64,000 nucleotides of DNA from Rhizobiales bacterium 2SD (GTDB lineage: Bacteria > Pseudomonadota > Alphaproteobacteria > Rhizobiales > Beijerinckiaceae), in assembly GCA_005502805.1 (NCBI GenBank), contig SCMY01000014.1, positions 62,001 to 126,000 on the forward strand, in the 5' to 3' direction. Shown here in pieces: positions 1,958 to 36,729 of the stretch (position 1 is the first letter of the stretch; every line of letters begins with the position of its first letter). The notes beneath the pieces are model-generated. The model searched no databases. It saw nothing but the letters and a program-made list of their open reading frames with translations, and had not been told where the DNA came from. A program made the translations under genes and the position numbers.

Positions 1958-2281
1958 ATGCGAGCGCTGGTCTTTGCGATTGCGATGGTGGCGAGCGGGA
2001 CGGCTTGGGCAGCACCCGGGCGCTGCCTCCTCGTCGTTGATGGCAAGACTTATCTGAATGGGGTGTGCAAAGTAGAGCTTCGATCTGGGGGAAATTTCCA
2101 GATACTGTCTCCAGGCAAACTTACCTACTTTGCTAATGTATCCCTAAGCGGAGACGCCCAAGCAAACGGTTTCTGGAATGAGGATATGGGCGCAAATCAT
2201 GCGCATACACCTCTAGGAATACTCCAGCGGAATGATGCCTGTTGGACCAACGAACGCGCTATCGTTTGCGCCTGGCGCTAA
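1958..2281 (+). CDS. Small secreted protein of unknown function
   Basis: A 107-residue protein with a clear signal peptide (MRALVFAIAMVASGTAWA, cleavage expected before APGRC). The mature part has Cys residues around CLLVVDGKTYLNGVCKVELR and near the C terminus (NDACWTNERAIVCAW), suggesting disulphides in the periplasm. The start was chosen because CAGGAGA lies about 8 nt upstream of ATG 1958. It shares orientation with higBA and its end overlaps the tape-measure end by 4 nt, so it belongs to the same inserted cassette. No family recognised. Confidence 0.7.
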   Translation: MRALVFAIAMVASGTAWAAPGRCLLVVDGKTYLNGVCKVELRSGGNFQILSPGKLTYFANVSLSGDAQANGFWNEDMGANHAHTPLGILQRNDACWTNERAIVCAWR

Positions 2282-20850: not shown

Positions 20851-20924
20851 GCGGCCCTCGCGAGGTTGTGGACACGCGATGCGAGCGCCTTGCGAGGAGC
20901 ATGCCGCAGCGGCAGGGTCGCGTG

Positions 20925-21689: not shown

Positions 21690-21758
21690 CGCAACGACGA
21701 TCCACATTGCGCGCCTCGCAGATACTTGCGGGCGCGCGGCTAGAATGCGCGCGGGGGG

Positions 21759-22493: not shown

Positions 22494-22518
22494 GACGGTA
22501 CGTCGTGCGGCCACTGCA

Positions 22519-22641
22519 TCACGCGTTCCCCTCCGGCGCCTCAGCGCCCCTGATGGTCGGACAGCCCACCAGCTCTTCGACCTTGAGCGCGACAGACCAG
22601 CCCTTTTGCCCACCGTCGAGCACGGGTTGAATGCAGCTCAC
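22519..22641 (-). CDS. Small phage protein of unknown function
   Basis: A 40-residue reading frame starting at GTG 22641, whose start overlaps the previous stop as GTGA. The sequence has QKGWSVALKVEELVGCPTIR. The tight coupling to the upstream gene supports it, but it is very short and nothing is known about it. Confidence 0.4.
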   Translation of the reverse strand: MSCIQPVLDGGQKGWSVALKVEELVGCPTIRGAEAPEGNA

Positions 22642-23803: not shown

Positions 23804-24111
23804 GCTGCCCTCCGTTGCATCTTGCGATGCTGGTTTTCCTGATGACTGACGATTTCGAGGTGTCTCGGGTTCACACACAGCGAGAAACAGCAGGTGTGAT
23901 CGCGATGCTCGCCCGGCTGGATTGTGTTTCCGCCTATGGCGTCGCAAGCGAACCGGTGGGCGCGAACGGCCCGGCCCTTCACCTTGAAGGAGCCGTACCA
24001 TTTGCGGTTGCCCTTCCCGCGCGATCTGGCGCCGGTCCAGAACCAGCAACCGTTCGGCAACTGGTCTACGAAGCGCATGAAGCGCTCTATGTCGGCCTGA
24101 TCGAACGTCAC
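23800..24111 (-). CDS. HNH endonuclease
   Basis: A 103-residue protein. Core: CWFWTGARSRGKG, VRAHRFACDAIGG, then GEHRDHTCCFSLCVNPRHLE with the His-Asn-His arrangement and Cys pairs for zinc. This resembles homing-type HNH_3 nucleases and other phage HNH enzymes. The start is GTG 24111, overlapping the helicase stop (GTGA); its stop overlaps the methyltransferase start. The proximity suggests it is an operon member rather than an insertion. Confidence 0.8.
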   Translation of the reverse strand: MTFDQADIERFMRFVDQLPNGCWFWTGARSRGKGNRKWYGSFKVKGRAVRAHRFACDAIGGNTIQPGEHRDHTCCFSLCVNPRHLEIVSHQENQHRKMQRRAA

Positions 24112-25514
24112 GCGACCATCCACGCCGGTAGCGTGGCCTCCTTGTCGGGGTGGTAGGTGTGGAGGGTGGTGTGTTCGACGGCGGCGCGGCGCATGGCGGC
24201 GGCCATCTCGGTCTTCATCCGCTCGTGATCGCCGGCCTTGCGCTGGACGGCGGCAACGATCTCCGCCTCGGTATCGGCCATCACGACATGGGCGCTGACC
24301 GGGCGCGGCTGGCCAAAGCGCCAAAAGCGGCGGGCGGCCTGATAGAAGGCCTCGTAGCTGAAGCTCAGTCCGGTGAAGACGGCCTGGTTGCAATGCTGCC
24401 AATTGAGGCCGTAGCCGGCGATAGAAGGCTTCGTCAGGAGAATGCGCAGCTCGCCGCGGCTGAAGGCAGACAAGCGCTCCTCCTTCAGATCGGGATGCAT
24501 CTTGCCGCTGACCTCGATCGCCTCCGGCACGGCGGCACGCACGGCCTCCGCCTCGTAGTCGGTATCGACCCAAATGCAGACCGGATCTCCGCCGGGAACG
24601 CTTGCGACGATCTCGGCAACCTGCGCAGCCCGGTCGGCTGCCGTCAGGCGCTTCTCTTTGTGGATCGAAGTTGCGGATCGCTCCGGGATGCGGAACATCC
24701 GGAACTGGCCGTTCCTCTCCTCGCCGGCATCCTGCATCCGATCGGCGCGCACGAGGTGCTTGACGATGTCGAGCGCCGGTAGGTCGTAGCCCACATCACT
24801 GAAGCCGAGGTCGGACGGCTTCGACACGCAACGCGCCCAGCTCGCCACCCAATCCCAGAACGGACGGATGGCGGCCTTCTTCAGCCGATAGACGCCGGCA
24901 TTGGCCTGATCCGCGATGAAGAACCGCGAGAGCATTTCGGAAGACGGCATGACGCCGAGGAAGGCTGAATGCTGGCCCAGTTCGCTATGGTCGTTCGGCG
25001 CCGGGGTGGCGCTGCCGGCGAGCCGGAACGGCGTTTGCCGGAAGGCCTCGATCAGCTTGCGCGTCGTCGCTCCGGTGAAGCTCTTCAGGATCGACGACTC
25101 GTCGAGGATCACGCCGGCATAATCGTTCGGGTCGAAGCGCTCCAGGCGCTCATAGTTCGTGATGACGATGCGCGGCGACGAAGGTGGCTGGCCGAATCGA
25201 GAAATCGACGCCTCGACGCCCATGGCTTCAGCTTCGCGCAGGTGCTGCTCACCGACAGCGAGCGGCGCCAGCATCAGCACCGGCTTGTTCAAATATTCGA
25301 CGACGCAGCGGCCCCAATCGAGCATCATGCGGGTCTTGCCGAGGCCGGTATCGTAGAAGAGGGCTGATCGGCCGGCGCGCAAGGCAAACTCGACACCGAC
25401 GCGCTGATGGTCGCGCAGCGTCGAGTTGAGCTCTGGCGTACGACTGATGCCGGCGCGCAGCGGTTCGGAACGCTTGGAGGCGCAGAGCGCGCGATAAGCT
25501 GAGAGGTGCTGCAC
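24108..25514 (-). CDS. SNF2-family DNA helicase/translocase
   Basis: A 468-residue superfamily 2 helicase. Motif I is ALFYDTGLGKTRMML (about 50-64), motif II VILDESSILKSF, motif III RLAGSATPAPND. The C-terminal RecA lobe contains LRILLTKPSIAGYGLNWQHC and FYQAARRFWRFGQPRPVSAH with the arginine finger region. Phage SNF2-like helicases remodel replication forks or displace proteins from DNA. It starts at GTG 25514 and is in the early operon with the methyltransferase. Confidence 0.88.
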   Translation of the reverse strand: MQHLSAYRALCASKRSEPLRAGISRTPELNSTLRDHQRVGVEFALRAGRSALFYDTGLGKTRMMLDWGRCVVEYLNKPVLMLAPLAVGEQHLREAEAMGVEASISRFGQPPSSPRIVITNYERLERFDPNDYAGVILDESSILKSFTGATTRKLIEAFRQTPFRLAGSATPAPNDHSELGQHSAFLGVMPSSEMLSRFFIADQANAGVYRLKKAAIRPFWDWVASWARCVSKPSDLGFSDVGYDLPALDIVKHLVRADRMQDAGEERNGQFRMFRIPERSATSIHKEKRLTAADRAAQVAEIVASVPGGDPVCIWVDTDYEAEAVRAAVPEAIEVSGKMHPDLKEERLSAFSRGELRILLTKPSIAGYGLNWQHCNQAVFTGLSFSYEAFYQAARRFWRFGQPRPVSAHVVMADTEAEIVAAVQRKAGDHERMKTEMAAAMRRAAVEHTTLHTYHPDKEATLPAWMVA

Positions 25515-25762
25515 TAAGCCGCCCTCCGCTCTTCATCCCGGGCACGTGCGATGCCATTGGCCGCTGCGGATGGTGTGCATTCGAGTCGCCATGCGATATC
25601 GACAGTGTCGAGGCCTTGTCGGAAGAGGCTAAGCGCAGCATCCGCGCCAATCTCATCCAGCTCATCGTGCCGAGCCGGCATTCCGGTCCCGATCAGCATC
25701 ACCGGACGCTCGGTGAAGAGACGCGCGTGGCGAAGGCTGTAGTTGGTGGCGCGCAGCGTCAT
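25514..25762 (-). CDS. Small helical protein (HTH-like)
   Basis: An 82-residue protein: YSLRHARLFTERPVMLIGTG, then a possible helix-turn-helix in ALSLFRQGLDTVDIAWRLEC and TPSAAANGIARARDEER. The start at 25762 opens MTLRATN and overlaps the GcrA-like gene stop by 4 nt. A DNA-binding role is suggested by the helix pattern only. Confidence 0.55.
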   Translation of the reverse strand: MTLRATNYSLRHARLFTERPVMLIGTGMPARHDELDEIGADAALSLFRQGLDTVDIAWRLECTPSAAANGIARARDEERRAA

Positions 25763-26370
25763 GCCACCCTCCGAGCGAATGCCTTGAGGTTCAGCTTGCG
25801 GTCGATGTCGCGAGTGTATGCGGGCGAATAGCTGAGCCCGGAGCAGTGCGAGCAGTAGGATTGGCCGGGCTCGACGAGGTTGCCGCAGTACCGCTTCTCG
25901 CTCGGCGCAGTGTTGTTCGGCCAGAGCGGCCAGCGACATTGCCCGTCGCGCAGATCGGCGAAGCTGAGGCGCGCGGGGTGCCAGTCGACCGGCGGTGCGT
26001 CCTCGGCCGTTGTCACGGCGACGCTGGGCTTCGCTCGGGCGACCGCCGCATCACGGCGCTCCTGTGCTCGCCGCAACCGCTCCTGCGCGCGAGCCAACGC
26101 TGCCACGCTGGCGTCGGCATTCGCCTTGCGAATGATGGCGCGGCGCGCTTCGGTCCCCTTGAGCGCAATTCCCTTCCGGAAGCAGCGCCCGATGACGGCG
26201 TTCCGGCTGCAACCGAGAATGGCGCCGATCTCCGATGCCGAATGGTCGCGGCCGAGCTCCCGCAGCGTCGCGTCGAGCTGATCGGTCCATTTGAACTTGC
26301 CCGTCACGCCGACCGGCTTCAGCCGACCGTTGACGCGCGCCCATGTAATGCAATCCTGCTGCATGGTCAT
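25759..26370 (-). CDS. GcrA-like cell-cycle transcription regulator
   Basis: A 203-residue protein. Residues 27-70 match the GcrA DNA-binding domain (KWTDQLDATLRELGRDHSAS; CSRNAVIGRCFRKGIAL). Residues 134-185 match its C-terminal domain (LSFADLRDGQCRWPLWPNNT; YCGNLVEPGQSYCSHC), which in host GcrA touches sigma70. GcrA normally activates promoters carrying methylated GANTC sites. The linker (85-120) is an Ala/Arg-rich helix. It may redirect host polymerase to phage promoters. Host GcrA itself must be elsewhere. Confidence 0.85.
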   Translation of the reverse strand: MTMQQDCITWARVNGRLKPVGVTGKFKWTDQLDATLRELGRDHSASEIGAILGCSRNAVIGRCFRKGIALKGTEARRAIIRKANADASVAALARAQERLRRAQERRDAAVARAKPSVAVTTAEDAPPVDWHPARLSFADLRDGQCRWPLWPNNTAPSEKRYCGNLVEPGQSYCSHCSGLSYSPAYTRDIDRKLNLKAFARRVA

Positions 26371-27104
26371 TGCTCGACGGACATTGAAGGGGCTTCCCGG
26401 CTGCGGCGCAGGAAGGCGGGGATTTCAGGCATTTCGCCGCTGGCGGCGATGACCTTGGCGCGCTCGACCGAGGCCGCGGCCTGGCGAGCGATGGCGTTCG
26501 CCGCCGCAAGGCCTCGGATGACGGGCTCGCCTGCCGGCTCGTCGGGAACATCCCCCTGTCCGCCGGCAGACGGCCCTGCCCCGGCCGGGGTCTGTGAATT
26601 CATGGGCGTCTCGGGGAGAGGCTGACGCCCCTCCCCGCCCGACGCTGCGGGCTCGCTTCCCGGCTCATTCCGGATGTGCGGCTCGACCGCGCTTTCTTGC
26701 TCCGATCCCGCCGTAAATGACGGGCTTTCGCCCCCAGCGCCGCCCTCGGAATCGGAGCCGTGTTGAGCAGACTGCGGGTCGCGTTCTGCCAGAGGACGGG
26801 CGGGCTGGTGTTCGGTGGTCTGACGCGTGCGCGCACCCGCGTCGCGCGCCACGTGCGCACGAGAGGGGACGGTCGCGGAAGCCTGATGATAGGCCTGCAG
26901 GTAGAGATCGAAGATCGCGTCGAATTCTGCGACCTCGTCCTGATCCTTGCCGAGGTGCTTGACGACGGCACGCAGCACCTTGACGTCGTAGCCATTGCCA
27001 CGGGCCTCGGCATAGACCTCCTTGATGTCGTCTTCGATCGTCCTCTTCTCCTCCTGGAGGCGCTGGACGCGTTCGACGATCGACCGAACCTGATCGTCGC
27101 TCAT
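26367..27104 (-). CDS. GapR-like (DUF2312) protein with long disordered tail
   Basis: A 245-residue protein. Residues 1-75 are a full DUF2312/GapR unit: RSIVERVQRLQEEKRTIEDD, IKEVYAEARGNGYDVKVLRA and EFDAIFDLYLQAYH. Host GapR is about 90 residues, coats overtwisted DNA ahead of polymerases and stimulates topoisomerases. Here about 150 residues of Pro/Ser/Gly-rich sequence follow, with a final helix (AAANAIARQAAASVERAKVI). The extension may recruit a partner. It lies next to the GcrA-like gene. Confidence 0.85.
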   Translation of the reverse strand: MSDDQVRSIVERVQRLQEEKRTIEDDIKEVYAEARGNGYDVKVLRAVVKHLGKDQDEVAEFDAIFDLYLQAYHQASATVPSRAHVARDAGARTRQTTEHQPARPLAERDPQSAQHGSDSEGGAGGESPSFTAGSEQESAVEPHIRNEPGSEPAASGGEGRQPLPETPMNSQTPAGAGPSAGGQGDVPDEPAGEPVIRGLAAANAIARQAAASVERAKVIAASGEMPEIPAFLRRSREAPSMSVEQ

Positions 27105-27496
27105 GACCGCTTCTCCATGAGGGTGCGCGCTGTCGCCAACGCCGCCTCCACCTCCGCCACCGCAGACAGACGAGGGTCTGCGCCCGTTGCGCGAAGGCCC
27201 GCCAGCTCAGCTTCAAGGGCCGCGATTTCATGCTCGATTTCCCGGATAAGGAGGGTTTCGGCTCTGGCTCGCAGCCAATCATCGACGCGCTTCAGCCGGC
27301 CGCGCGCCATCGACTCCAGCGTTCCGGGAAGCGTGCCGAGGCGGGATGCCAGCTGCCGCCGGCCGTCGCGAACAGACCCAGTCCGGCGGGCGGCCCTCAA
27401 CTCCAGTCTCGCGATGATGTCGCGACTCTGGTCCTGATACTCGACGGTACTCATAGCTGGTTGATCCGTCCGCGTGGCGTGGATGATCGGTCGCAT
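27101..27496 (-). CDS. Coiled-coil phage protein of unknown function
   Basis: A 131-residue protein, largely helical: DQSRDIIARLELRAARRTGS, LLIREIEHEIAALEAELAGL (a likely coiled coil) and EVEAALATARTLMEKRS. ATG 27496 was chosen because GGAG lies 8 nt upstream; ATG 27454 (MSTVEYQ) is a shorter alternative. Overlaps the GapR-like gene by 4 nt. Confidence 0.6.
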   Translation of the reverse strand: MRPIIHATRTDQPAMSTVEYQDQSRDIIARLELRAARRTGSVRDGRRQLASRLGTLPGTLESMARGRLKRVDDWLRARAETLLIREIEHEIAALEAELAGLRATGADPRLSAVAEVEAALATARTLMEKRS

Positions 27497-27834
27497 CGGT
27501 TCGTGCTCCATGGGGGAGCTTGGAGACACGAACTGAGGGTTCCCGGATGCGAAGGCTGGATTCGATCGTCGCCGAACTGCTGGCAGGCGTGCGGGCGAGG
27601 ATCGATGCCCAGGAACTCAAGGGCGTTGCCGACAACGACAACGGGACCGGCCCGCGCTTTCAGCGCGTGGCCGCCGAGTTGGAAGAACGTGGAAGGCGAA
27701 ACCGCCGGAAGCGGCGCCGAAAGACTTGCGTCGCCGCAGTGCCGGCAAAGATGGCGCGGTAACGAGCTCTGGCTGGTGATAACAGCCATCGGCTCGCCGC
27801 AGCGCGCCCAGATCGTCGCGTCTCGGGCCGCCAT
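27451..27834 (-). CDS. Putative zinc-ribbon protein
   Basis: A 127-codon frame whose ATG 27834 shares one base with the stop of the Cro-like gene. The N-terminal part has IWARCGEPMAVITSQSSLPR and HLCRHCGDASL, a Cys-X2-Cys-containing ribbon. The last 40 residues are Pro/Ser-rich and overlap the next gene's start, so the true C terminus is uncertain. A rightward frame at 27547-27762 competes for the same DNA. Confidence 0.45.
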   Translation of the reverse strand: MAARDATIWARCGEPMAVITSQSSLPRHLCRHCGDASLSAPLPAVSPSTFFQLGGHALKARAGPVVVVGNALEFLGIDPRPHACQQFGDDRIQPSHPGTLSSCLQAPPWSTNRCDRSSTPRGRINQL

Positions 27835-28082
27835 CAGGCAACCTCTTTTTCGCAGGGCTGCGGCCTTGCGATGCCGACCGGCCAAGTGGCGCTGTCCGGC
27901 CAATTCTCCGAAAGCCAACGGAGCCCGCGCGCGACACGACGCGCACCCATGTCGCCGCCCTCCCGCAAATGCTTGAGCCTTGTTCCCTCCCCGAACACCA
28001 GCGTCGAAACCCTGGATTCGGACAGCTGACGGGCGTCGGCATACGCTCGGGCGACCGCGAGAAATGTGTCGATGGCATTCAT
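27834..28082 (-). CDS. Cro-like/early regulator (putative)
   Basis: An 82-residue protein, the first gene of the leftward early operon and divergent from the repressor. It reads NAIDTFLAVARAYADARQLS, then STLVFGEGTRLKHLREGGDM and RRVARGLRWLSENWPDSATW. A helical DNA-binding fold is likely, and the position is that of cro. Start ATG 28082 is 14 nt left of the proximal operator. Regulator function is inference from position and helix pattern. Confidence 0.65.
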   Translation of the reverse strand: MNAIDTFLAVARAYADARQLSESRVSTLVFGEGTRLKHLREGGDMGARRVARGLRWLSENWPDSATWPVGIARPQPCEKEVA

Positions 28083-28090
28083 GCCACCAT

Positions 28091-28119
28091 TCTTGGAGCT
28101 ATTTTTAGCTCGAAGTCAA
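28091..28119 (-). promoter_or_regulatory. Leftward early promoter
   Basis: On the minus strand TTGACT (28119-28114) is a good -35 box. The operator at 28111-28096 fills the spacer, and a poor -10 (CAAGAA, 28095-28090) follows. The arrangement of TTGAC, then operator, then -10 mirrors the rightward promoter at 31164-31191. Confidence 0.5.
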
Positions 28120-28133
28120 GGCTATTTTTAGCC
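28096..28133 (+). promoter_or_regulatory. Repressor operators OL1 and OL2
   Basis: GAGCTATTTTTAGCTC (28096-28111) and GGCTATTTTTAGCC (28120-28133) share arms and the same TTTT centre; centres are 23 bp apart. They lie between the Cro-like start (28082) and the repressor start (28171). A partial copy, GAGCTAAATTTG, begins at 28154 just before the repressor ATG. The same element recurs at 31142-31185. Binding by the adjacent repressor is inference. Confidence 0.8.
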
Positions 28134-28170
28134 CGCGCATACCGCGCATTGTCGAGCTAAATTTGTCCCC

Positions 28171-28914
28171 ATGCCCGACAAAAGCCTACAACCACCCGAT
28201 ACCCTCGCAGGCCGAATTGACAAGCGCCTTGCCGCAACCGGCAAGACAGCTAAGGGGGCATCGCGGGAAGCTGGTCAGGGCGAGAGCTTCATCAAGAATA
28301 TTCGGACCGGGGCATCCAAGTCGCCGCGCACAGAAGGGTTGCGAGAGTTAGCAAGGGTCCTCCGCACCAGCCTTGAATGGTTGGCAGATGGGAGGGGCCC
28401 AGAGGAAGTTGAGCCGGCCGCGGGCGATGCCCCACCGCCAGATGCTAGTCTGCGCATTCCGCTGACCGCGCATCCGCAGAAGGGCGGAAAGCCGGATTTA
28501 GCCGTCCGCGGCATTGCTCTGGGTGGCAAGGAAGGCGACGGCGACTTCCAGCTCAACGGCGACGCGCTGCAGTACCTCGAGCGTCCGGCTGGGCTGATCA
28601 ACAAGCCCAATGCCTTCGCAGTCATCCTCCGCAACACCAGCATGGAGCCGGTCTACAAGCACGGCTGGCCGATCTTCGTGGATCCGGACGGTCGCAAGCC
28701 CGTCGACGGCGAGGACGTGCTGATTGAGCTGCACGGCGAGAGCGAGCACGAACCCGGCCCGGCTTTCATCAAGACGCTAGTCGGGCGCCGCGGCGGCCAG
28801 GTCCATCTCTCGCAATACAACCCGCCCCCGGCTGACCTCAGTTTTCCCGCCGATCGTGTGAAGCAGATTCTGCGGGTCATCCCCTATGTCGAGGCAATGG
28901 GGCTAGGCGTCTGA
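28171..28914 (+). CDS. CI-like phage repressor (S24 peptidase family)
   Basis: A 247-residue repressor. Residues 10-75 are a helix-turn-helix domain (TAKGASREAGQGESFIKNIR). The C-terminal S24 domain has the catalytic Ser in ILRNTSMEPVYKHG (about 155) and the Lys in FIKTLVGRRGG (about 200). Such repressors keep lysogeny and cleave themselves when RecA is activated. The expected Ala-Gly cleavage bond is not obvious; VRGIALGG (about 112-119) is the nearest candidate. No ribosome site precedes ATG 28171, so translation may be leaderless. Confidence 0.9.
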   Translation: MPDKSLQPPDTLAGRIDKRLAATGKTAKGASREAGQGESFIKNIRTGASKSPRTEGLRELARVLRTSLEWLADGRGPEEVEPAAGDAPPPDASLRIPLTAHPQKGGKPDLAVRGIALGGKEGDGDFQLNGDALQYLERPAGLINKPNAFAVILRNTSMEPVYKHGWPIFVDPDGRKPVDGEDVLIELHGESEHEPGPAFIKTLVGRRGGQVHLSQYNPPPADLSFPADRVKQILRVIPYVEAMGLGV

Positions 28915-28921
28915 GCGCAGG

Positions 28922-29590
28922 TCAAATGGGGCCGAATTCGAATAACCCCAATTGGCTCTCGCGAATCTGCTCCTCCTCCCACCCGAGCATTCTGTCGCGT
29001 TGTTCATTTACGCGGCGCCCGATAGCGACTCCGCACAGAACTTTGCAGCCGGCCTCCTCCAGAATCTCCTTCATCGCGAACATCTGTGAGCCGGTATGGA
29101 CGAAATCATCGAACAGGACGACTGGCGCTTTCGGCGCACTCATTAGCTTCAAATTTGCCTTCTGCAGTTCTTTGGATCTACGCCCGCCCGCTTCATGCTG
29201 CTTGGGTAGAGCTTGCTTCCAAAGCACCGCGGCTGCAGAGCCAGCAAGTTTTGCCTTCCGCGCGATATCTGCAGCCATCATCGCGGTAGCAAAATTGAGA
29301 TCACCGCCAACAATGCCCTGACGATTAGGGACGGGCACAATTACGGCTTCTGATGGCAGACGGTCACGAAGATAGAGCGCCGCATCACCCGCCAAGATCG
29401 GCAAAAAATCGCGGGCATTATTATTATTGAACCGGCGCTGAACGCCACCTACCATGAAATCCACATACCCATTAAAGGGCTCACATTTGGTCATTTTAAC
29501 ATAATTGCGAGCCGAATAGTCTTGTGACCGCCATTGAACATCTACATTCACCAGATAGCGCACCCGATGGTGCACCAATAGCTCGGTCAT
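28922..29590 (-). CDS. ComF-like phosphoribosyltransferase-domain protein
   Basis: A 222-residue protein. The PRPP-binding loop is PVVLFDDFVHTGSQMFAMKE (about 155-175) with the usual acidic pair, and an upstream VIVPVPNRQGIVGGD strand-loop matches the PRTase fold. ComF's zinc-finger N terminus is absent; instead there is a beta-rich start (RYLVNVDVQWRSQDYSARNY). It overlaps the DprA-like gene by 4 nt and ends 7 nt from the repressor end. The DNA is AT-richer than its neighbours. Likely partner of the DprA-like protein; reaction unknown. Confidence 0.8.
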   Translation of the reverse strand: MTELLVHHRVRYLVNVDVQWRSQDYSARNYVKMTKCEPFNGYVDFMVGGVQRRFNNNNARDFLPILAGDAALYLRDRLPSEAVIVPVPNRQGIVGGDLNFATAMMAADIARKAKLAGSAAAVLWKQALPKQHEAGGRRSKELQKANLKLMSAPKAPVVLFDDFVHTGSQMFAMKEILEEAGCKVLCGVAIGRRVNEQRDRMLGWEEEQIRESQLGLFEFGPI

Positions 29591-30330
29591 TTTAAAACTC
29601 GATTGAGAATGTCAGCGGTCTCGGTAAGAACCTCGACGCGTGGCTTGCCAATAAAGCTTGCCGGCCATGTAAGCCGGGGATCAGTCGCGACGGATTTCGT
29701 AATGAAAAGCCACCGGCCTAGCTTCTGACATTCAGCCGCCTGGTGGAGTGTGCCGGATGAATCCGACGCCTCAATGATCACAGTTGCGTCGCTGAGCGCC
29801 GCCATTACGCGGTTGCGTGCGGGAAAATTGCTCCGGAACACTTGAGTGCCAGCCTTGAATGGCGATACGAGCAAATGGCTGCGGTAAATCTCCATCTGCA
29901 GGTCGGCATGCTCTGCAGGATAGGCCTTATCAATCGGCGTGCCTATTACGGCCATGGTACGGCCGCCGGCGTCGATCGCGCCGCGATGAGCCTCGAAATC
30001 GACGCCGCGCGCCAATCCGCTAGTAACGACAACGCCAGACAGCGCGAGCTCACGCGCTAGGCGCCGGGCTCGGCGACGTCCATCATCGGAGACTTCTCTA
30101 GTTCCGACGATCGAGACGCAAGGAGCCTTCAAGAGGTCGATGTCGCCTGAAAGATAGATTTGCCCGGGGCGCTCGGCGACATCGCGCCTTAGCATCTCGA
30201 GTTGCCGAACTTCGAGTGCCGGACGCCCAGCAAACTGCAGGACGTCGTTCAGCCCATCCTGCCGCACGTTCGCGGGCGGGCGATAACGCGAGCGTCCGCG
30301 CGGTGCGTCACTATGGAGGGCCATTGCCAT
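29587..30330 (-). CDS. DprA/Smf-like SLOG-fold protein
   Basis: A 247-residue protein comprising mainly the Rossmann core of DprA: PCVSIVGTREVSDDGRRRAR, VVTSGLARGVDFEAHRGAID, GTPIDKAYPAEHADL, and FPARNRVMAALSDATVIIEA then SGTLHQAAECQKLGRW. All Smf motifs are kept. Host DprA loads RecA on incoming DNA and is longer, with extra end domains missing here. SLOG proteins elsewhere bind nucleotides. ATG 30330 or 30324 fits better than TTG 30336. Function with the PRTase is inferred to be phage defence or conversion. Confidence 0.85.
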   Translation of the reverse strand: MAMALHSDAPRGRSRYRPPANVRQDGLNDVLQFAGRPALEVRQLEMLRRDVAERPGQIYLSGDIDLLKAPCVSIVGTREVSDDGRRRARRLARELALSGVVVTSGLARGVDFEAHRGAIDAGGRTMAVIGTPIDKAYPAEHADLQMEIYRSHLLVSPFKAGTQVFRSNFPARNRVMAALSDATVIIEASDSSGTLHQAAECQKLGRWLFITKSVATDPRLTWPASFIGKPRVEVLTETADILNRVLK

Positions 30331-30458
30331 ACCCAATCGAGCTGTCTCCCGAATCGTGGGTCAATAGCCGAACAACATGCCGATCTTGTGGATTATGGTG
30401 GAAAACACAACCGACGGTTCGACTGCTGACAAATATTTTCAAAGCTTGCATCAGGAAA
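30331..30458 (-). promoter_or_regulatory. Gap upstream of the DprA-PRTase pair
   Basis: A 128-bp gap with AT-rich patches. CATAAT on the minus strand (30397-30392) could be a -10 box, but no matching -35 was found at the right distance. The gap is consistent with the cassette having its own promoter, active in the lysogen. No repressor operator of the GAGCTA type lies here. Confidence 0.35.
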
Positions 30459-30764
30459 TCAGGACAATGCTGACCTTGCGAGGTCGAAAGCACTCAGCGC
30501 GGCCTCGATCTCGCGCAGCTTGTCCTCCGATGGCGGCGCCAATATCCCGCCGGTCGCACCATCTCCCACTATGCCACACATCGGGATGACGCTGGCCTCG
30601 TCGTAGAGGCCGCTGTCGGCGAGCTCGAACTCGTAGCCAGGGAAACGCTCGCGCAAGTGCGCATCCAGCCGCTCCTTGGCGGCTTCGAAAGCCTTCTCCT
30701 GTCCCAGCGGCGGGAACACGACGATCCGCTTCGTCTCAGGCCGGCCTTCGTGCCAGGGCTTCAT
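30459..30764 (-). CDS. Hypothetical phage protein
   Basis: A 101-residue protein with RIVVFPPLGQEKAFEAAKER, FPGYEFELADSGLYDEASVI and a C-terminal helix EDKLREIEAALSAFDLARSA. It overlaps the preceding zinc-ribbon gene by 4 nt. Leftward, upstream of the DprA-like gene. No family recognised. Confidence 0.6.
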   Translation of the reverse strand: MKPWHEGRPETKRIVVFPPLGQEKAFEAAKERLDAHLRERFPGYEFELADSGLYDEASVIPMCGIVGDGATGGILAPPSEDKLREIEAALSAFDLARSALS

Positions 30765-31009
30765 CGCTCACCTCGCTTGATCGGGTAGAGGTTGATGTTC
30801 TTGCCGAGGCCGCCGCGCTCACGGCAGAGCGAGCAATGCAGGCGGTTGTGCAGGCCGAAAAGGCTGTAAGTGCCTTGAACGATGATGTCGGCGATGTCCG
30901 ACGCCTGCAGGCGCTTTGTCCTGCCGCAATCATCACAGCTGATGTCGATCGCGCGATACTGCGCGAGCTCCGGGCGCCGTGGAGCACCCTCCCCCCATGG
31001 CAAGCTCAT
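30761..31009 (-). CDS. Small zinc-ribbon protein
   Basis: An 82-residue protein with Cys pairs CDDCGRTK (about 25-32) and CSLCRERGG (about 58-66), a four-Cys zinc site. The middle reads DIIVQGTYSLFGLHNRLHC. Similar small zinc proteins are common in early regions of phages of Rhizobiales. It starts at 31009, divergent from the rightward operon, and may share the operators at 31142-31185. Confidence 0.65.
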   Translation of the reverse strand: MSLPWGEGAPRRPELAQYRAIDISCDDCGRTKRLQASDIADIIVQGTYSLFGLHNRLHCSLCRERGGLGKNINLYPIKRGER

Positions 31010-31141
31010 CGATACGCAACCCCTTAATGTTCTGTTTACGTTCTCATTGAAGGCAGAAACCGGGTGGCGAGTCGAGCCGGACCTTCGCGGCTATCCTGAC
31101 GGCAGATGTCAGGAGGTCGGGTCAAGGCTTGGATGCATAAA

Positions 31142-31185
31142 GAGCTATTTTTAGCCCTACACTCTTGACGAGCTATTTTTAGCTC
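31142..31185 (+). promoter_or_regulatory. Repressor operators OR1 and OR2
   Basis: GAGCTATTTTTAGCCC (31142-31157) and a perfect GAGCTATTTTTAGCTC (31170-31185), centres 28 bp apart. They copy the operators beside the repressor gene 3 kb away. The second lies between the -35 and -10 of the rightward promoter. This is the expected layout for a lysogeny switch with two controlled promoters. Confidence 0.82.
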
Positions 31186-31191
31186 TCTAGT
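31164..31191 (+). promoter_or_regulatory. Rightward early promoter
   Basis: TTGACG (31164-31169) is a near-consensus -35. After 16 bp, all operator, comes TCTAGT (31186-31191) as -10. The first gene starts at 31218. Repressor binding would block polymerase directly. Confidence 0.65.
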
Positions 31192-31217
31192 GTCTCTCCA
31201 TCGAACGGAGAGACGCG

Positions 31218-31508
31218 ATGTCCTCAGCAACCTTCACCCCGACCGAACTGTTCTGCGCCACGATGGCGATCTGGGACGGCATCTGCACCGCGCTGATGCC
31301 GGCGCGCGAGGGCGATATCAGCATTCCGGCGCCGGGCCATAGCATGGGCGCCCATGATGCCGCGCTATACTGCCAGGAGCAGATCATCCGCCTTGAGCAG
31401 GAGGAGCGCCGCGCGTTCTTCCGCGACTGCCTCGCCAAGCTCGACGCCAGCCTCGCCCGCATCGCCGCAAGCGATGACATCACCCGCTACTCGATCGCAG
31501 CGGAGTGA
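31218..31508 (+). CDS. Early phage protein of unknown function
   Basis: A 96-residue protein, first of the rightward operon: TPTELFCATMAIWDGICTAL and a helical C-terminal half (QEQIIRLEQEERRAFFRDCL). GGAGAGACGCG precedes ATG 31218. It lies immediately downstream of the operator-controlled promoter. No family recognised. Confidence 0.65.
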   Translation: MSSATFTPTELFCATMAIWDGICTALMPAREGDISIPAPGHSMGAHDAALYCQEQIIRLEQEERRAFFRDCLAKLDASLARIAASDDITRYSIAAE

Positions 31509-31512
31509 GGTC

Positions 31513-31743
31513 ATGAACCAGACCTATCTCAGCGGCTTCGATTTCTGGATCACCTCGGCGCGAGACGAACTCGCCGGCCATGGGATCGGCAAGGACCTGA
31601 GCTGGCGCGGGCTGCTGAGCCTCGCGCTCCGCTTCGTTCGGACCGCCCTCACCTACGCCAACCGGCTCGGCTGCCCCGCCCGCACGGCACTCTGCCTTCG
31701 CCTGATGAACTGGCTCCGCGCCGACATGCGGAGGGCAGCATGA
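31513..31743 (+). CDS. Early phage protein of unknown function
   Basis: A 76-residue protein (MNQTYLSGFDFWITSARDEL; LSLALRFVRTALTYANRLGC). GAGGTC precedes ATG 31513, which was preferred over a longer upstream reading that overlaps the previous gene. Its stop overlaps the next start by 4 nt. Confidence 0.6.
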   Translation: MNQTYLSGFDFWITSARDELAGHGIGKDLSWRGLLSLALRFVRTALTYANRLGCPARTALCLRLMNWLRADMRRAA

Positions 31744-31967
31744 TCCGCCGCCTCGCCCGTCAGGCGCTCGCTGCCTTCACATCATGGCGCCATGCCCGCC
31801 GCGTCGCCAAGACGGCCCCCGAGGTCGCTGAACTGCAGCGTGAGATCGCCAAGCGCTCGCGCCGCCACCGCAAGACTGAGCCTCTTCGACGCGAGCTCCG
31901 CGCCCGCGTCACGGCAGCACTCGCCCGCGAGCAGGGCATCACCATTCAGGAGAGGAAATTCTCATGA
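31740..31967 (+). CDS. Small very basic phage protein
   Basis: A 75-residue protein rich in Arg/Lys (ASWRHARRVAK-type HARRVAKTAPEVAELQREIA; KRSRRHRKTEPLRRELRARV). The charge suggests nucleic-acid binding. Coupled by ATGA overlaps on both sides. No family recognised. Confidence 0.6.
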   Translation: MIRRLARQALAAFTSWRHARRVAKTAPEVAELQREIAKRSRRHRKTEPLRRELRARVTAALAREQGITIQERKFS

Positions 31968-32479
31968 ACGCCCAGCCCGACATCGCCAAGGTTCAGCGCG
32001 ACCTCGAAGCCGCCAAGGTGCTCCGCGACCAGATCGCCCAGCTTGCCGACGGCGATGAGGAATTCGTCCGAGACACGCTGCAAGGCGAAACCGACCTAGA
32101 AGGCATCGTTCGCTCGCTCCTTGCCGGCATCGGCCTAGACGAGGCCATGGCCGACGGCATCGATGCCTTCGGCAAGGAACTTGCCACCCGTAAGGAGCGG
32201 CTCGCCAGCCGCGCCAAGCTCAAGCGTACGTTGGTTTGCACCGCGCTGGAGATCGCGGGCCGCAAGACGTTCGAGACCGACGTCGGCACCGTTACGCTGT
32301 CGGCGGTCAAGCCGAAGGCGATCGTCAACGAGGAAGCCGACATCCCGGCCGAGTTCTTCAAGCCACAGCCCCCGAAGCTTGACCAATCCGCGCTATCCGC
32401 CGCCCTCCGCGAGGGCCGCGAGGTACCCGGCGCTGTGCTTTCCAACGGCGGCAACACCATCCGCATTCTGAGGAAGTGA
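31964..32479 (+). CDS. Gp157-family phage protein
   Basis: A 171-residue protein: helical N-terminal half (EGIVRSLLAGIGLDEAMADG; ATRKERLASRAKLKRTLVCT), then TFETDVGTVTLSAVKPKAIV and DIPAEFFKPQPPKLDQSALS with a final NGGNTIRILRK. This is the Siphovirus Gp157 layout. In other phages it is found directly before recombinase genes, as here. It is associated with recombination or nuclease control; the molecular action is not established. Confidence 0.85.
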   Translation: MNAQPDIAKVQRDLEAAKVLRDQIAQLADGDEEFVRDTLQGETDLEGIVRSLLAGIGLDEAMADGIDAFGKELATRKERLASRAKLKRTLVCTALEIAGRKTFETDVGTVTLSAVKPKAIVNEEADIPAEFFKPQPPKLDQSALSAALREGREVPGAVLSNGGNTIRILRK

Positions 32480-32482
32480 CCG

Positions 32483-33457
32483 ATGAACGCTGTCGTCCCC
32501 CTGCGCTCGCTCGATTTCACGAACAACCAGCTCGCGCTGATCCGCAAGACGGTCGCGGCTGACACGAACCAGGACGAGTTCGAGCTCTTCGTACACACCG
32601 CCAAGCATCTGCGGCTCGATCCGCTGCGCCGCCAGATCTACGCGTTTGTCTTCTCGAAGAACGACGCCGAGAAGCGGCGCATGTCGATCATCGTTGCGAT
32701 CGACGGCTTCCGCGCGATTGCAGATCGCACCGGCGCCTATCGGCCCGACGAAGACGAGCCGGCCTTCGAAATCGACCCGGCCGCGATCAATTCCGATACC
32801 AATCCCATCGGTCTTGTGAAGGCGACAGTCCGCGTCTGGAAGCACTCGCACGGCGCCTGGCACAAGGTCACCGCCTCGGCCTACTGGGACGAGTACGCAC
32901 CGATCAAGCAGTCAGCTGACGAATACGAGTGGGTTGAAACGGGCGAGGTCTGGCCCGACAGCAAGAAGCCAAAGAAGAAGAAGGTCCCCGTCGGTGATGT
33001 CCGCGCCAAGCTCGACACCTCCGGCAACTGGGCGAAGATGCCGCGCCTGATGCTGGCGAAGGTCGCCGAGGCGCTCGCGCTGCGCAAGGCATGGCCGGAC
33101 GATTTCAGCAACGTCTACGCCGCCGAGGAAGTCGATCGCAGCAGGGCGCAGGATATGACCGCCTGGGAGGCGGCCGAGGCCGGCGCGACCGAGAAGCGCC
33201 TGCAGCAGATCGGCCAAGGCCAGACCATCCTGTTCCAGTTCGATCCGACCGGGCCGCTGGAGCCTGTGCCGCTCGGCAAGATCGCCGATCGGGTCGCCGA
33301 ATTCATCCGGGACAACCGTGACGAGGTGTCTGCAATCGGCCTGTTCGAGAGCCGCAACCGCCACGCCCTTCGCGAGTTCTGGGGGCGCCAGCCCGGCGAT
33401 GCGCTCGAAGTGAAGCGCATCCTCGAAGCCGCAATGAAGGAAGGAGCAGCAGCATGA
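32483..33457 (+). CDS. bet: Single-strand annealing protein Bet/RecT
   Basis: A 324-residue recombinase of the Bet/RecT group. Key stretch: TKHLRLDP-like HTAKHLRLDPLRRQIYAFVF, then MSIIVAIDGFRAIADRTGAY and GLVKATVRVWKHSHGAWHKV, with MPRLMLAKVAEALALRKAWP later. These are the conserved annealase motifs. It pairs complementary strands during phage recombination and end repair. A Lys-rich insertion (KKPKKKKVPVG) follows residue 150. No partner exonuclease of the Exo/YqaJ type is found beside it. Confidence 0.92.
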   Translation: MNAVVPLRSLDFTNNQLALIRKTVAADTNQDEFELFVHTAKHLRLDPLRRQIYAFVFSKNDAEKRRMSIIVAIDGFRAIADRTGAYRPDEDEPAFEIDPAAINSDTNPIGLVKATVRVWKHSHGAWHKVTASAYWDEYAPIKQSADEYEWVETGEVWPDSKKPKKKKVPVGDVRAKLDTSGNWAKMPRLMLAKVAEALALRKAWPDDFSNVYAAEEVDRSRAQDMTAWEAAEAGATEKRLQQIGQGQTILFQFDPTGPLEPVPLGKIADRVAEFIRDNRDEVSAIGLFESRNRHALREFWGRQPGDALEVKRILEAAMKEGAAA

Positions 33458-33954
33458 ACGCCGCCCTGCCCTTCCGCTGGGACGGCTCGATCATGCAGCC
33501 CTTGCCCGGCTTCGCGAAGCGCTGCGATGCTGCCTTCGTCATTGGCGAGGTTTACAACCTTGAAGCCATCGAACAGCGCTCGGCGAAGTCGCATGCCCAC
33601 TACTTCGCCTCGATCAACGAGGCTTGGCAGACACTGCCTGAGCAGCACGCCGAACGCTTCCCCACAGCTGAGCACCTTCGCAAGTGGTGCCTGATCCGCG
33701 CCGGCTATGCCGAGCAGCGGCAGATGGTGGCGTCGAGCAAGGCGGAGGCCCTGCGCCTTGCTGCCTTCATCAAGCCCATGGACGGCTACGCCGAAGTCTC
33801 AGTTCGGGAGAGCGTCGTCATTGTCTTCACGGCCGAGAGCCAGTCGATGAAGGCGATGGGCAAGGAGCGTTTCCAGGCGAGCAAGACCGCCGTGCTGGAG
33901 CTTCTCGCCGTCATCCTCGAATGCGAGGTGACCGAGCTTGGGAGGGCGGCATGA
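33454..33954 (+). CDS. Conserved phage protein linked to the recombinase
   Basis: A 166-residue protein starting MNAALPFRWDGSIMQPLPGF, with KSHAHYFASINEAWQTLPEQ, FPTAEHLRKWCLIRAGYAEQ and KERFQASKTAVLELLAVILE. The start overlaps the bet stop by 4 nt. I recognise the pattern from replication/recombination modules of phages of Rhizobiales but know no function. A DNA-metabolism role is inferred from position. Confidence 0.7.
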   Translation: MNAALPFRWDGSIMQPLPGFAKRCDAAFVIGEVYNLEAIEQRSAKSHAHYFASINEAWQTLPEQHAERFPTAEHLRKWCLIRAGYAEQRQMVASSKAEALRLAAFIKPMDGYAEVSVRESVVIVFTAESQSMKAMGKERFQASKTAVLELLAVILECEVTELGRAA

Positions 33955-34355
33955 TGCCCTTCGTCTGCGAGGATGTTGGTACCACCAAGCGCCGGCGAAT
34001 GACGCCGACCCGCGCTCTCAAGGCCTGGGAGAACACTGGCGGCGTCTGCGTCACCTGCGACCTCAGGATCGACGGCACCAAGGAAGACTGGTTCGTGGAG
34101 CATATCCGCGCGCTGGAGCTTGGCGGCGCCGACGACGACCAGAACATCGGCCCGGCCCACCTGGAACGCTGCAAGGCGACCAAGGACGCCGACGATCACT
34201 CTCGTACCGCCAAGGCCAAACGCAACAAGCGGGCCGCGCTCGGCATTCGTCCGCCGACACGGCTGAACGGTCCCGGCTTCCAGAAATTCGCGCCTCAGCG
34301 GCGCGCCTCAACCCCTCTCAGCAAACCACTGCCGCCCCGGAAGCTGGCTCCATGA
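33951..34355 (+). CDS. HNH endonuclease
   Basis: A 134-residue protein: GGVCVTCDLRIDGTKEDWFV, then EHIRALELGGADDDQNIGPA and HLERCKATKDADDHSRTAKA. The His-Asn-His positions and a Cys pair are visible. The C-terminal 45 residues are basic and Pro-rich. It could act in recombination beside the annealase or in packaging. ATGA overlaps on both sides place it in the operon. Confidence 0.8.
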   Translation: MMPFVCEDVGTTKRRRMTPTRALKAWENTGGVCVTCDLRIDGTKEDWFVEHIRALELGGADDDQNIGPAHLERCKATKDADDHSRTAKAKRNKRAALGIRPPTRLNGPGFQKFAPQRRASTPLSKPLPPRKLAP

Positions 34356-34675
34356 CCCGTACCCTATGGATTCCCGAGCGTTCTAACGAGTTGGCGATCA
34401 AGATCGCCTATGCCGTCCAAGCCGGGCGTGTTCCGTGCCTCGGACAATATCTTGATGAGGACCGCGCAAAATTGACGGCGACTACGCTCGCCACTTTGTA
34501 CGGCGATCCCGCGTTCAAGGCGCGTTGCGTCGTCATCGAGATGCGCACGCACGATGATGGCCGCATTCCGGTCGCCCGCATTGTCGACCAGATCGGCGAG
34601 CTGGCGGCGGCGATCATCCTCTTCGCCATGATTGTACTCGTCGGCATCGGCAGCCTCTACGAGGTGATGGCATGA
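34352..34675 (+). CDS. Small membrane-anchored phage protein
   Basis: A 107-residue protein. Residues 1-80 are soluble (MTRTLWIPERSNELAIKIAY; RCVVIEMRTHDDGRIPVARI) and a C-terminal hydrophobic segment (AAAIILFAMIVLVGIGSLYE) would span the membrane. Coupled to both neighbours by 4-nt overlaps. Function unknown. Confidence 0.6.
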   Translation: MTRTLWIPERSNELAIKIAYAVQAGRVPCLGQYLDEDRAKLTATTLATLYGDPAFKARCVVIEMRTHDDGRIPVARIVDQIGELAAAIILFAMIVLVGIGSLYEVMA

Positions 34676-34824
34676 CTGCTTGGCAGGCTTTTGTCCTCGG
34701 TTGCCTCGTGACGCTCGCCATCGAAGCCTTGATTCGTGCCGCTCTCTGGATCGTCAACTCCCGTCCCCTTGCTGAACCAATGGAAGACGCACCGGGCGAC
34801 TGGCCTCACATGGACGGAAGGTGA
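34672..34824 (+). CDS. Single-span membrane microprotein
   Basis: A 50-residue protein with one strong hydrophobic segment (WQAFVLGCLVTLAIEALIRA) and a short acidic tail (MEDAPGDWPHMDG). ATG 34672 overlaps the previous stop (ATGA), supporting translation. Function unknown; the early-operon setting argues against a classical holin. Confidence 0.55.
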   Translation: MTAWQAFVLGCLVTLAIEALIRAALWIVNSRPLAEPMEDAPGDWPHMDGR

Positions 34825-34900
34825 AGATGGCCCACGCGCGATTCCTGCTGGAGCTGCCGCGTCTGGATCGGCGGCGCGGCGCATTGGGAGCGCCATCGGC

Positions 34901-35215
34901 ATGGCTGACGCCATCGACAAATGGAAGGCTGAGGAGCAGCGGCAGTCGCACATCTTCGCCGCCGCGATGCAGAAGGCGATCGACGGCGCCGCGGCCGAGC
35001 TCATCGCTGCGGGGCAGCCGCCCATCATGAACGCTCTCGCCGGCGCATTCGTATCGGTCGAGGCGGGCTTCCTGGCAGGGCTTGCAGATCCCCGCAGCGT
35101 GAAAGCTGTGCGCGCCGCCATGGACAAGGCGAGGCCGCGAGCGCTCGCCCAGGCGCGTGAGCAGAACGTTAGCCGCGCGACGGCGGTGATCGTTGGGAGG
35201 CGATCCGATGGCTGA
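34901..35215 (+). CDS. Helical phage protein of unknown function
   Basis: A 104-residue protein (MADAIDKWKAEEQRQSHIFA; MNALAGAFVSVEAGFLAGLA). GGGAG precedes ATG 34901 by about 9 nt. The upstream in-frame region is Pro/Gly/Ser-rich and probably not coding, leaving a 76-bp gap after the microprotein gene. Its end overlaps the next start by 8 nt. Confidence 0.55.
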   Translation: MADAIDKWKAEEQRQSHIFAAAMQKAIDGAAAELIAAGQPPIMNALAGAFVSVEAGFLAGLADPRSVKAVRAAMDKARPRALAQAREQNVSRATAVIVGRRSDG

Positions 35216-35363
35216 CTTTCCTTACCTCTACCGCTGGAACCGCTGCGACCGCAAAGGCCAGCGCTGCCGCGTCTTCGCCCGCGGCACGATGAACTCCGTG
35301 GGCCTCGAGTTCGAAGACGGCTTCACCATGGTCTCCTCCGGCAATGCGCTGAGGAGGGCGTGA
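35208..35363 (+). CDS. Small phage protein of unknown function
   Basis: A 51-residue protein (MADFPYLYRWNRCDRKGQRC; NSVGLEFEDGFTMVSSGNAL) of a beta-like pattern seen in early phage operons. TGGGAGGCG precedes ATG 35208. Its stop shares one base with the excisionase-like ATG. Confidence 0.6.
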   Translation: MADFPYLYRWNRCDRKGQRCRVFARGTMNSVGLEFEDGFTMVSSGNALRRA

Positions 35364-35767
35364 TGTTGTCGCGCGCTGACCTAGCCGAAGATCTCCTGAC
35401 GCCCTGCGAGGCAATGGAACTCCTCCGCTGCACGGAGAAGGTTCTGCGCCAGTACGTCCAGAGCGGAGCACTCTCCTACATCATCAAAGGCGCTGGCTTG
35501 AAGCGACCACGGCGGCTGTTTCATCGTGACGATATCGCCGCCTTCATCGCCCGCCAGCGGAGAACAGAATGTCCGTCTACAAGCCGAAAGGACGGGACTG
35601 CTACGTTATCGACTTCCAACTTGGTGGTCGTCGATTTTGCATCAGTACCGAGGCCACAACGAAACGCGCCGCTCAGGAACTTGAACAGCGCGGGCGCGAA
35701 AAGGCCAAGCAACTCATCGCAGCCGAGAAGGCCGCAGCTGCCGCATTCAGAGGCGAAACCCCGCTGA
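35363..35767 (+). CDS. Excisionase-like helix-turn-helix protein
   Basis: Residues 1-68 form a MerR/HTH_17-type domain (LLTPCEAMELLRCTEKVLRQ; YVQSGALSYIIKG; RRLFHRDDIAAFIARQ), typical of excisionases that bend DNA beside the attachment site and set the direction of integrase. The frame continues 65 residues further, overlapping the integrase gene by 199 nt; that tail is Ser/Pro-rich and may be dispensable. ATG 35363 shares a base with the previous stop. Confidence 0.65.
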   Translation: MLSRADLAEDLLTPCEAMELLRCTEKVLRQYVQSGALSYIIKGAGLKRPRRLFHRDDIAAFIARQRRTECPSTSRKDGTATLSTSNLVVVDFASVPRPQRNAPLRNLNSAGAKRPSNSSQPRRPQLPHSEAKPR

Positions 35768-36729
35768 CGATGGGGCTCGCCGTCTCGAAATATTGGGAAG
35801 AAGCCGGGAAGCATCAGGTGAACGCCGCGACGACATGGACCGATCTGAACCGCGCGCTTGCGTTCTTCGGTAGCGACAGGCGGATCGACGACATCCGCGA
35901 TGCGGATATCTCCACGATGGTCGCCAAGCGCCGCGGCGAGACGATCAAGGGCCGGAAGAAGCTGGCCGATGGCTCGCCGGCGCCGCTGATCAAGCTCTCG
36001 ACGGTCAACCGCTCGACCACCGACCTGATGCGCAAGCTTCTGACCCACGCTCGGAAGAAGTGGAAGATCGCCCTGCCGCACGAACCCGAATGGAAGACCC
36101 ATCGTCTCAAGGAGGGCGGAGAACTCGTCCGCGAGATGAAGGCCGGCGCCCAGGAGACCGATATCTCCGCAGCGTTAGGAGACGGTTATCGCGACCTCTG
36201 GCGATTCGCCGTTGCTAGCGGTCTGCGCCTCGCGGAATGCTTCCTGCAGTGGTCGCAGATCGATTGGGAAGCTGAGACCATAACGGTGATTCAGAAGGGC
36301 AGCCGATCGCACACGATCCCCCTCACCCGCGAGATGCGCGCCATCCTGGCCTCCAACCGCGGGCACGATACCAACTGGGTGTTCTGCTACATCGCCAGCC
36401 GGACCAAGCGCGAAGGCACGAAGGTCCTCCGCGAGCGCAAGAAGCGCTATCCCGTCACCTACGAGGGGATGAAGACCGAGTGGCGCCGGAAGGTGAAGAC
36501 CGACCTGGACCTTGAGCTTCGATTCCACGACATGCGGCACACCCGCGCGACGCGGACGCTGAGAGCCACCGGGAACATCAAGGTCGTGCAGCGCCTTCTA
36601 GGTCATGCTGACGTGGCAACGACCGCCGCCTACTATGCTCATGTAACGATGGACGATGTGCGAGACGCGCTCGAACGCGACACAAAATCCCGACAGACGT
36701 CCCGACGCACCAAGAAGCAAGCTTCCTAA
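35569..36729 (+). CDS. int: Tyrosine site-specific integrase
   Basis: A 386-residue recombinase. N-terminal arm-binding domain (DFQLGGRRFCISTEATTKRA) and SAM-like core-binding domain (about 65-170) precede the catalytic domain. Active-site residues: Arg in ASGLRLAECF, the HxxR box HDMRHTRATR (His 320, Arg 323), His in LLGHADVATT (345) and the nucleophile Tyr in AAYYAHV (356). It lies 40 bp from the tRNA fragment, so it inserts the phage into tRNA-Pro(GGG). Confidence 0.93.
   Translation: MSVYKPKGRDCYVIDFQLGGRRFCISTEATTKRAAQELEQRGREKAKQLIAAEKAAAAAFRGETPLTMGLAVSKYWEEAGKHQVNAATTWTDLNRALAFFGSDRRIDDIRDADISTMVAKRRGETIKGRKKLADGSPAPLIKLSTVNRSTTDLMRKLLTHARKKWKIALPHEPEWKTHRLKEGGELVREMKAGAQETDISAALGDGYRDLWRFAVASGLRLAECFLQWSQIDWEAETITVIQKGSRSHTIPLTREMRAILASNRGHDTNWVFCYIASRTKREGTKVLRERKKRYPVTYEGMKTEWRRKVKTDLDLELRFHDMRHTRATRTLRATGNIKVVQRLLGHADVATTAAYYAHVTMDDVRDALERDTKSRQTSRRTKKQAS

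Follow-up and report, generated by a model that had tools for sequence, protein, structure and literature searches.

A two-gene cassette in a prophage

The window, by which we mean the whole stretch of 64,000 nucleotides analysed here (G000:C5:62001-126000, from an assembly of 6.27 Mb in 29 contigs), contains two adjacent genes on the minus strand, a predicted antitoxin gene followed by a predicted toxin gene. The first (29587-30336) encodes a ShosA-like protein with a DprA/SLOG Rossmann domain, 249 aa long when read from a TTG at 30336; an in-frame ATG at 30330, where the original prediction ended the pair, is the other candidate start. The second (28922-29590) encodes a ShosT-like, stand-alone phosphoribosyltransferase (PRTase) of 222 aa. 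According to the ORF positions, the antitoxin stop and the toxin start share 4 nt (29587-29590, minus strand), which confirms the proposed overlap of a DprA-like gene with a PRTase gene. Both frames are open. A promoter scan limited to the sigma-70 type found no such promoter on the minus strand near the pair. The pair also lies in AT-richer DNA, as had been noted, with a GC content of 0.53-0.59 in three 500-base bins (29000-30499) versus 0.596-0.690 in the remaining bins of 24000-35999.

Upstream of the pair and in the same direction are two small minus-strand ORFs, at 30459-30764 and 30761-31009, the latter with two CxxC motifs. Their best family match in four libraries was no better than E 0.07. 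We considered them as possible members of the system and rejected them, as a BLASTP search of the 58 related loci described below, at 1e-5, gave no match for either.

A PHROGs scan of 19 window proteins placed the pair among phage genes. On the minus strand, these encode a tape measure protein (2278-4722) and a tail sheath protein (5789-7588), as well as a major head protein, head protease, portal, terminase, antiterminator, methyltransferase and helicase. On the plus strand are Gam-like (31964-32479), RecT-like (32483-33457) and NinB-like (33454-33954) genes and an integrase gene (35569-36729). Judged from these annotations, the surrounding prophage is of the contractile-tailed type, and with head, tail, packaging and integrase genes around it, the pair is prophage cargo, as the original prediction held. 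A 588-aa ORF inside the prophage (20847-22613, minus strand) had no PHROGs match at 0.001.

Next to the pair lies a predicted prophage repressor of the S24 peptidase type (28171-28914, plus strand; Pfam Peptidase_S24, 1e-8; phrog_4 transcriptional repressor, 4.4e-21). The pair had been described as downstream of this repressor, which is correct as to position and not as to transcription: the two are convergent, with 7 nt separating their stop codons. Upstream of the repressor gene, a motif search found two exact copies of the near-palindromic 12-mer GCTATTTTTAGC (at 28098 and 28121; 28098-28132). Two more exact copies (at 31144 and 31172; 31144-31183) lie in the stretch that separates the leftward block from the rightward early genes. 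Allowing up to two mismatches, the window contains seven matches versus 1.0 expected. The four exact copies are probable repressor operators, which would place the pair inside the immunity region, and the repressor might control its leftward transcription.

A firm DprA fold and a divergent phosphoribosyltransferase

The assignment of the larger ORF to DprA is firm, with a match to Pfam DNA_processg_A at 1e-53. An alignment of 36 family members (A6) has G78, R80, G107, L108, A109, G111, D113, F171, P172, R174 and N175 among its invariant positions. These include G78 and R80 of the G-T-R of the Rossmann domain (residues 78-80; 30097-30105, minus strand) and five residues (G107, L108, A109, G111 and D113) of the SGLARGVD motif (residues 106-113; 29998-30021, minus strand). 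The G-T-R arginine, which we take to be the one that contacts single-stranded DNA in Helicobacter pylori DprA, is thus kept in the window antitoxin. The lysine that is presumably its partner corresponds to R168 here, at a position that varies in the family. The stretch ahead of the DprA domain is short, about 50-60 aa, throughout the family. The description of this protein as a truncated DprA therefore holds for its length; it does not hold as a sign of decay, because the short form is family-wide. The host's own dprA is a separate gene, with a 402-aa frame at G000:C23 that stands apart in the tree, so the window gene is a second DprA and not the housekeeping copy.

The PRTase was harder to recognise. 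Against Pfam Pribosyltran, the toxin scored weakly (E 0.0078, 16 bits versus a cut-off of 26.3), and up to E 1 only PRTase families were matched in Pfam; its 222 aa include no added N-terminal HAD or pyrophosphatase part. The suggestion that it is ComF-like found little support, with NCBIfam comF at 0.001 and 19 bits versus a cut-off of 233.55. An alignment of 38 chosen relatives without the most divergent toxins (A5) has invariant K35, P88, R138, D161, D162 and G167. The last three lie in the predicted PRPP-binding loop VVLFDDFVHTGS (residues 157-168; 29087-29122, minus strand). When the divergent toxins are included, reading by eye shows that 54 of the 55 paired loci keep the Asp pair of the loop, with L051 having E-D instead. 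The predicted conservation of Smf and PRPP-loop residues is thus found across the family. A profile of the 38 relatives matched solved chains of PRPP synthetases (ribose-phosphate pyrophosphokinases) and PRTases, the best at 5.3e-8. Weak from the window sequence alone, the PRTase identity is firm with the family profile.

The PADLOC models matched both proteins, ShosA at 5.7e-66 and ShosT at 9.1e-12. The ShosA model gave the window antitoxin 219.9 bits versus 221.9 for the best 412-aa DprA frame and so does not separate it from housekeeping DprA, and the ShosT model has matches in 295 of 297 genomes sampled from the order, presumably through ordinary PRTases. Because both models are unspecific, we did not accept their names as proof and instead relied on co-occurrence and phylogeny.

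The pair recurs in bacterial genomes and viral contigs

With the window PRTase as query, no relatives were found in phages, plasmids, viral contigs or genome contigs. It shares just 16-20% identity with seven aligned phage toxins. Because the PRTase diverges fast, relatives were sought with the antitoxin. A scan with a two-row antitoxin alignment (A4) identified 58 genome loci and 23 viral contigs. We kept the 35 genome loci with E ≤ 1e-45, a cut set after the list had been seen, and all 23 viral contigs, giving 58 short-antitoxin loci; the 23 genome loci set aside look like other, mostly housekeeping, DprA.

An abutting or overlapping PRTase gene is present in 55 of the 58 loci, 48 codirectional and seven convergent. 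Among the 23 set-aside DprA loci there is no PRTase partner, although in L089, L092 and L100 the available sequence stops no more than 35 nt from the gene; for all 81 loci together the count is 55. Codirectional genes are spaced from -20 to +16 nt, and 16 of the 48 share the -4 spacing of the window, with the toxin start codons of the relatives picked by script as those nearest to the antitoxin stop. The three exceptions are L072, with 345 nt to the contig end, L117, with no partner, and L123, with a truncated toxin remnant. Three of the 58 loci are repeats: L044 and L102 have identical antitoxins, as do L069 and L121, and the DNA of L012, which is the locus in the same-genus genome G034, is contained in L058. 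The L069 toxin is in two frames and that of L121 in one. Homologues are therefore not always single, an outcome that the original prediction had named as counting against it, and the pairing is repeated beyond chance.

Judged by record title, most of the 35 genome loci (28) are from Alphaproteobacteria. Among close relatives the pair is rare, occurring in two of 101 genomes, the window's own included. A two-toxin profile run over 67 genomes of the genus recovered the same two, by construction, at more than 400 bits and nothing else above 33 bits. Of the phage records, 37 have a DprA match; we inspected eight of these, and seven have a PRTase neighbour (that of SopEPhi detected by the toxin profile only); the eighth, L008, carries an ordinary-looking dprA without one. 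In the order sample, nine places had strong ShosA matches at a cut of about 240 bits, set after the list had been seen, and seven of them have an adjacent PRTase, some on weak scores. Two ShosA-like genes of this sample, L154 and L155, have no recognisable PRTase neighbour. Another locus, L159 (G258:C2:19500-27500), contains two tandem DprA-PRTase cassettes, of which one has a bare PRTase and the other a long toxin of the P24C9 type.

Both genes are under purifying selection in relatives. Omega was measurable for both in two of 11 pairs; in the other nine, dS was saturated for one or both genes. The window is in none of the 11. The values for antitoxin and toxin were 0.15 and 0.15 (L043-L101) and 0.07 and 0.06 (L119-L121).

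When we compared 26 phage genes of the window with the 58 loci by BLASTP, just five matches were found, in four loci; the pair moves between contexts. For 20 of the 35 genome loci we identified one long flanking protein per locus, and five of these 20 were integrases. When all flanking frames were compared with one another, no third partner gene came up repeatedly: the two widest groups, spanning eight and six of the 58 loci, both contain frames identified as integrases.

Phylogeny of antitoxins and toxins

In a midpoint-rooted tree of 77 antitoxin rows, the window antitoxin belongs to a 60-row clade of short ShosA proteins (support 100/95). Next to this clade come the DprA proteins of the Mana and Riah phages, followed by those of phiOH2 and Vasanti (100/97 for all together), and in each of these phages the DprA gene is directly upstream of a PRTase gene. 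The host's 402-aa DprA and nine other housekeeping rows fall outside the clade of the window antitoxin. The antitoxins of P24C9, PfAC02a and SopEPhi are found elsewhere, on long branches apart from the window lineage, so that the tree speaks neither for nor against kinship with characterised ShosA within the DprA family. Among solved structures, the entry 9vzo ('DprA-like antitoxin protein ShosA') is hit by the family profile at 1.3e-28; the match is confined to the DprA domain, and other solved DprA proteins match in the same way.

We also considered separate histories for the window antitoxin and toxin. The toxin tree rejects a grouping of the window toxin with L043 and L101 (p 2.5e-8), and the antitoxin tree does not reject a grouping of the window antitoxin with the toxin's relatives L044, L045, L102 and L103 (p 0.32). 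Separate histories were not borne out by these tests.

Comparison with characterised systems

The original prediction knew of no characterised system with this pair, yet ShosTA has it, and so do PsyrTA and RqlHI, with a helicase-fused toxin. Published work describes several such systems. In Rousset et al. 2022 (PMC9122126), a DprA and PRTase pair from a P2-like phage hotspot protects Escherichia coli against T7 and lambda; the authors propose DprA as the sensor of phage DNA and the PRTase as the killing component, note that DprA proteins bind single-stranded DNA, and point to shosTA, syrTA and rqlHI as earlier examples of toxin-antitoxin pairs. In RqlHI, the PRTase domain confers toxicity, most of which is abolished by mutations in the PRPP pocket, and the DprA-like partner physically binds the PRTase-bearing protein (PMC4670107). 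According to a review (PMC12593503) that draws on Pu et al. 2025, ShosT works both as a PRTase and as a pyrophosphatase, upsets purine metabolism and brings about DNA duplications and filamentation, whereas ShosA binds DNA and probably promotes recombination, with T7 Gp0.7 as a trigger. Elsewhere, ShosTA is listed among systems activated by a phage single-stranded-DNA-binding protein (PMC10732053).

Like the window pair, ShosTA (for example that of Peduovirus P24C9) consists of a DprA-fold antitoxin and a PRTase toxin encoded adjacently on temperate phages, and in P24C9 the antitoxin gene also comes first. PfAC02a differs in having the toxin gene first, with its toxin annotated as HAD and PRTase. 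The bare PRTase of the window is 222 aa long versus 424 aa for the P24C9 and 478 aa for the PfAC02a toxin, and lacks the N-terminal part of both. The window antitoxin is about 60 residues shorter ahead of the DprA domain than 9vzo (domain at 51-211 versus 114-275). Since the extra toxin domain of characterised ShosT is missing, we call the pair ShosTA-like rather than ShosTA on the basis of its domain content.

Closer in layout are phages Mana (Burkholderia), Riah (Pseudomonas), Vasanti (Gordonia) and phiOH2, all with the gene order of the window. The toxins of the first three (201-249 aa) are near the window toxin in length, unlike the 401-aa toxin of phiOH2. Nearly the whole of the 237-position PADLOC ShosT model is covered by the bare PRTases of Mana and Riah, so the additional N-terminal part may or may not be a defining feature of ShosT. 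Their antitoxins are longer than that of the window (282-410 aa) but 33-43% identical to it and on the same side of the ShosA tree, while the toxins of all four are just 16-20% identical to the window toxin. In PsyrTA and RqlHI, as in the ShosTA arrangement, a DprA-like protein restrains a PRTase domain; there the PRTase is fused to a RecQ-like helicase, a domain that the 222-aa window toxin lacks. Competence proteins ComF and DprA share the folds of the pair, but the curated ComF cut-off was missed and the host dprA is separate.

Proposed function and alternatives

Taken with its relatives, the pair is likely a compact ShosTA-type toxin-antitoxin module against phages, in which PRPP-dependent toxicity would be held back by a DNA-responsive antitoxin. 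ShosA, made first, would hold the PRTase in check. Infection or damage that yields abnormal or single-stranded DNA would engage ShosA, and ShosT would then be freed or left unneutralised. With PRPP and a purine base, a nucleotide or a similar compound as substrates, ShosT may unbalance nucleotide pools, which would lead to DNA damage and stop the infected cell. The toxin and antitoxin roles, phage protection, pool disturbance and DNA binding by ShosA are carried over from the literature on relatives, and we infer a like action for the window pair, with its toxin without the extra ShosT domain. Several results count against this reading: the PADLOC models are unspecific, the window toxin has low identity to the phage toxins and lacks the N-terminal part of the long ones, the tree sets the window antitoxin apart from those of P24C9, PfAC02a and SopEPhi, two of the nine strong ShosA places have no recognisable PRTase, and L123 retains just a toxin remnant. 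As prophage cargo, the module probably serves superinfection exclusion or abortive infection, and the predicted role in defence is to that extent probable by homology to anti-phage ShosTA. If so, the ShosTA kind of system, characterised in E. coli, would extend to a compact, mostly alphaproteobacterial lineage and 23 viral contigs, and minimal single-PRTase toxins would show whether the PRTase alone suffices for toxicity.

Toxin-antitoxin architecture alone predicts post-segregational killing equally well, and the cassette is within the putative immunity region, which would also suit an addiction module, one that keeps the prophage in place and does little or nothing against other phages. We consider this unlikely, given that an integrated prophage generally needs little stabilisation and that the related phage-borne pair protects against T7 and lambda (PMC9122126). 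The neighbourhood of the pair offers another reading, since Gam-like, RecT-like and NinB-like genes lie on the other strand, the Gam-like and RecT-like ones about 1.6-2.1 kb away: given the single-stranded DNA binding ascribed to DprA proteins (PMC9122126), the DprA protein could load a recombinase or annealing protein on phage single-stranded DNA together with the prophage RecT/Bet-like and Gam-like proteins. That the PRTase partner in 55 of 58 loci is left unexplained, and that the three recombination proteins have no BLASTP match at 1e-5 in the 58 loci (flanks mostly 5-6 kb, some much less), makes such an accessory role very improbable.

The original prediction had suggested a nucleotide signal, made by the PRTase and sensed by the SLOG protein, or processing of incoming single-stranded DNA, and both are less well supported than toxin-antitoxin action. 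For the signal speak the kept PRPP loop and the binding of nucleotides or sugar phosphates known for both fold families. However, no third, effector-like gene recurs, the widest flanking group (eight of 58 loci) being apparently integrase, and characterised relatives behave as toxin and antitoxin (PMC9122126, PMC4670107, PMC12593503), so that we give signalling a low probability. Lastly, folds as in competence and an antitoxin shorter than the host DprA might indicate duplicated or decayed host competence genes, captured by the prophage and without present function. This is hardly credible for a paired family that is conserved throughout, has low omega in relatives (the window itself being in no omega pair) and is represented here by open frames, with the host dprA distinct and outside the clade.

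Convergent toxins and a possible exchange of partners

Returning to the ShosTA-like pairs, we looked at the seven of 58 loci with the abutting PRTase on the opposite strand (L048, L049, L054, L063, L104, L105 and L115). Their gene ends overlap by 4-21 nt (for example L049:6729-7280, minus strand). This group was set by orientation before tree building. Its toxins form one clade (99/89), with an omega of 0.05 for L049-L054, the sole measurable pair. The antitoxins do not form one clade and require three changes on the tree (AU p 9e-5). As the toxins are one clade and the antitoxins are not, toxins seem, on these trees, to have been exchanged among antitoxins.

We tentatively suggest that the short DprA-fold antitoxin is an exchangeable guard, whose lineages were repeatedly re-paired with different PRTase toxins, the convergent clade included; we hold this to be possible rather than likely. 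Swappable toxins would mean that ShosA must either recognise a common PRTase surface or act on shared DNA damage. If it acts on the damage and not on the partner, ShosA would be an antitoxin that repairs or masks harm. In the convergent layout, the two genes would share neither a promoter nor translational coupling, and such pairs are a testable case of antitoxin action without co-translation. A literature search, mostly of journals outside subscription, found no paper that describes the short-antitoxin lineage or DprA-PRTase pairs in convergent orientation. At one of the seven convergent loci, L048, a second, codirectional PRTase gene is located 658 nt further on.
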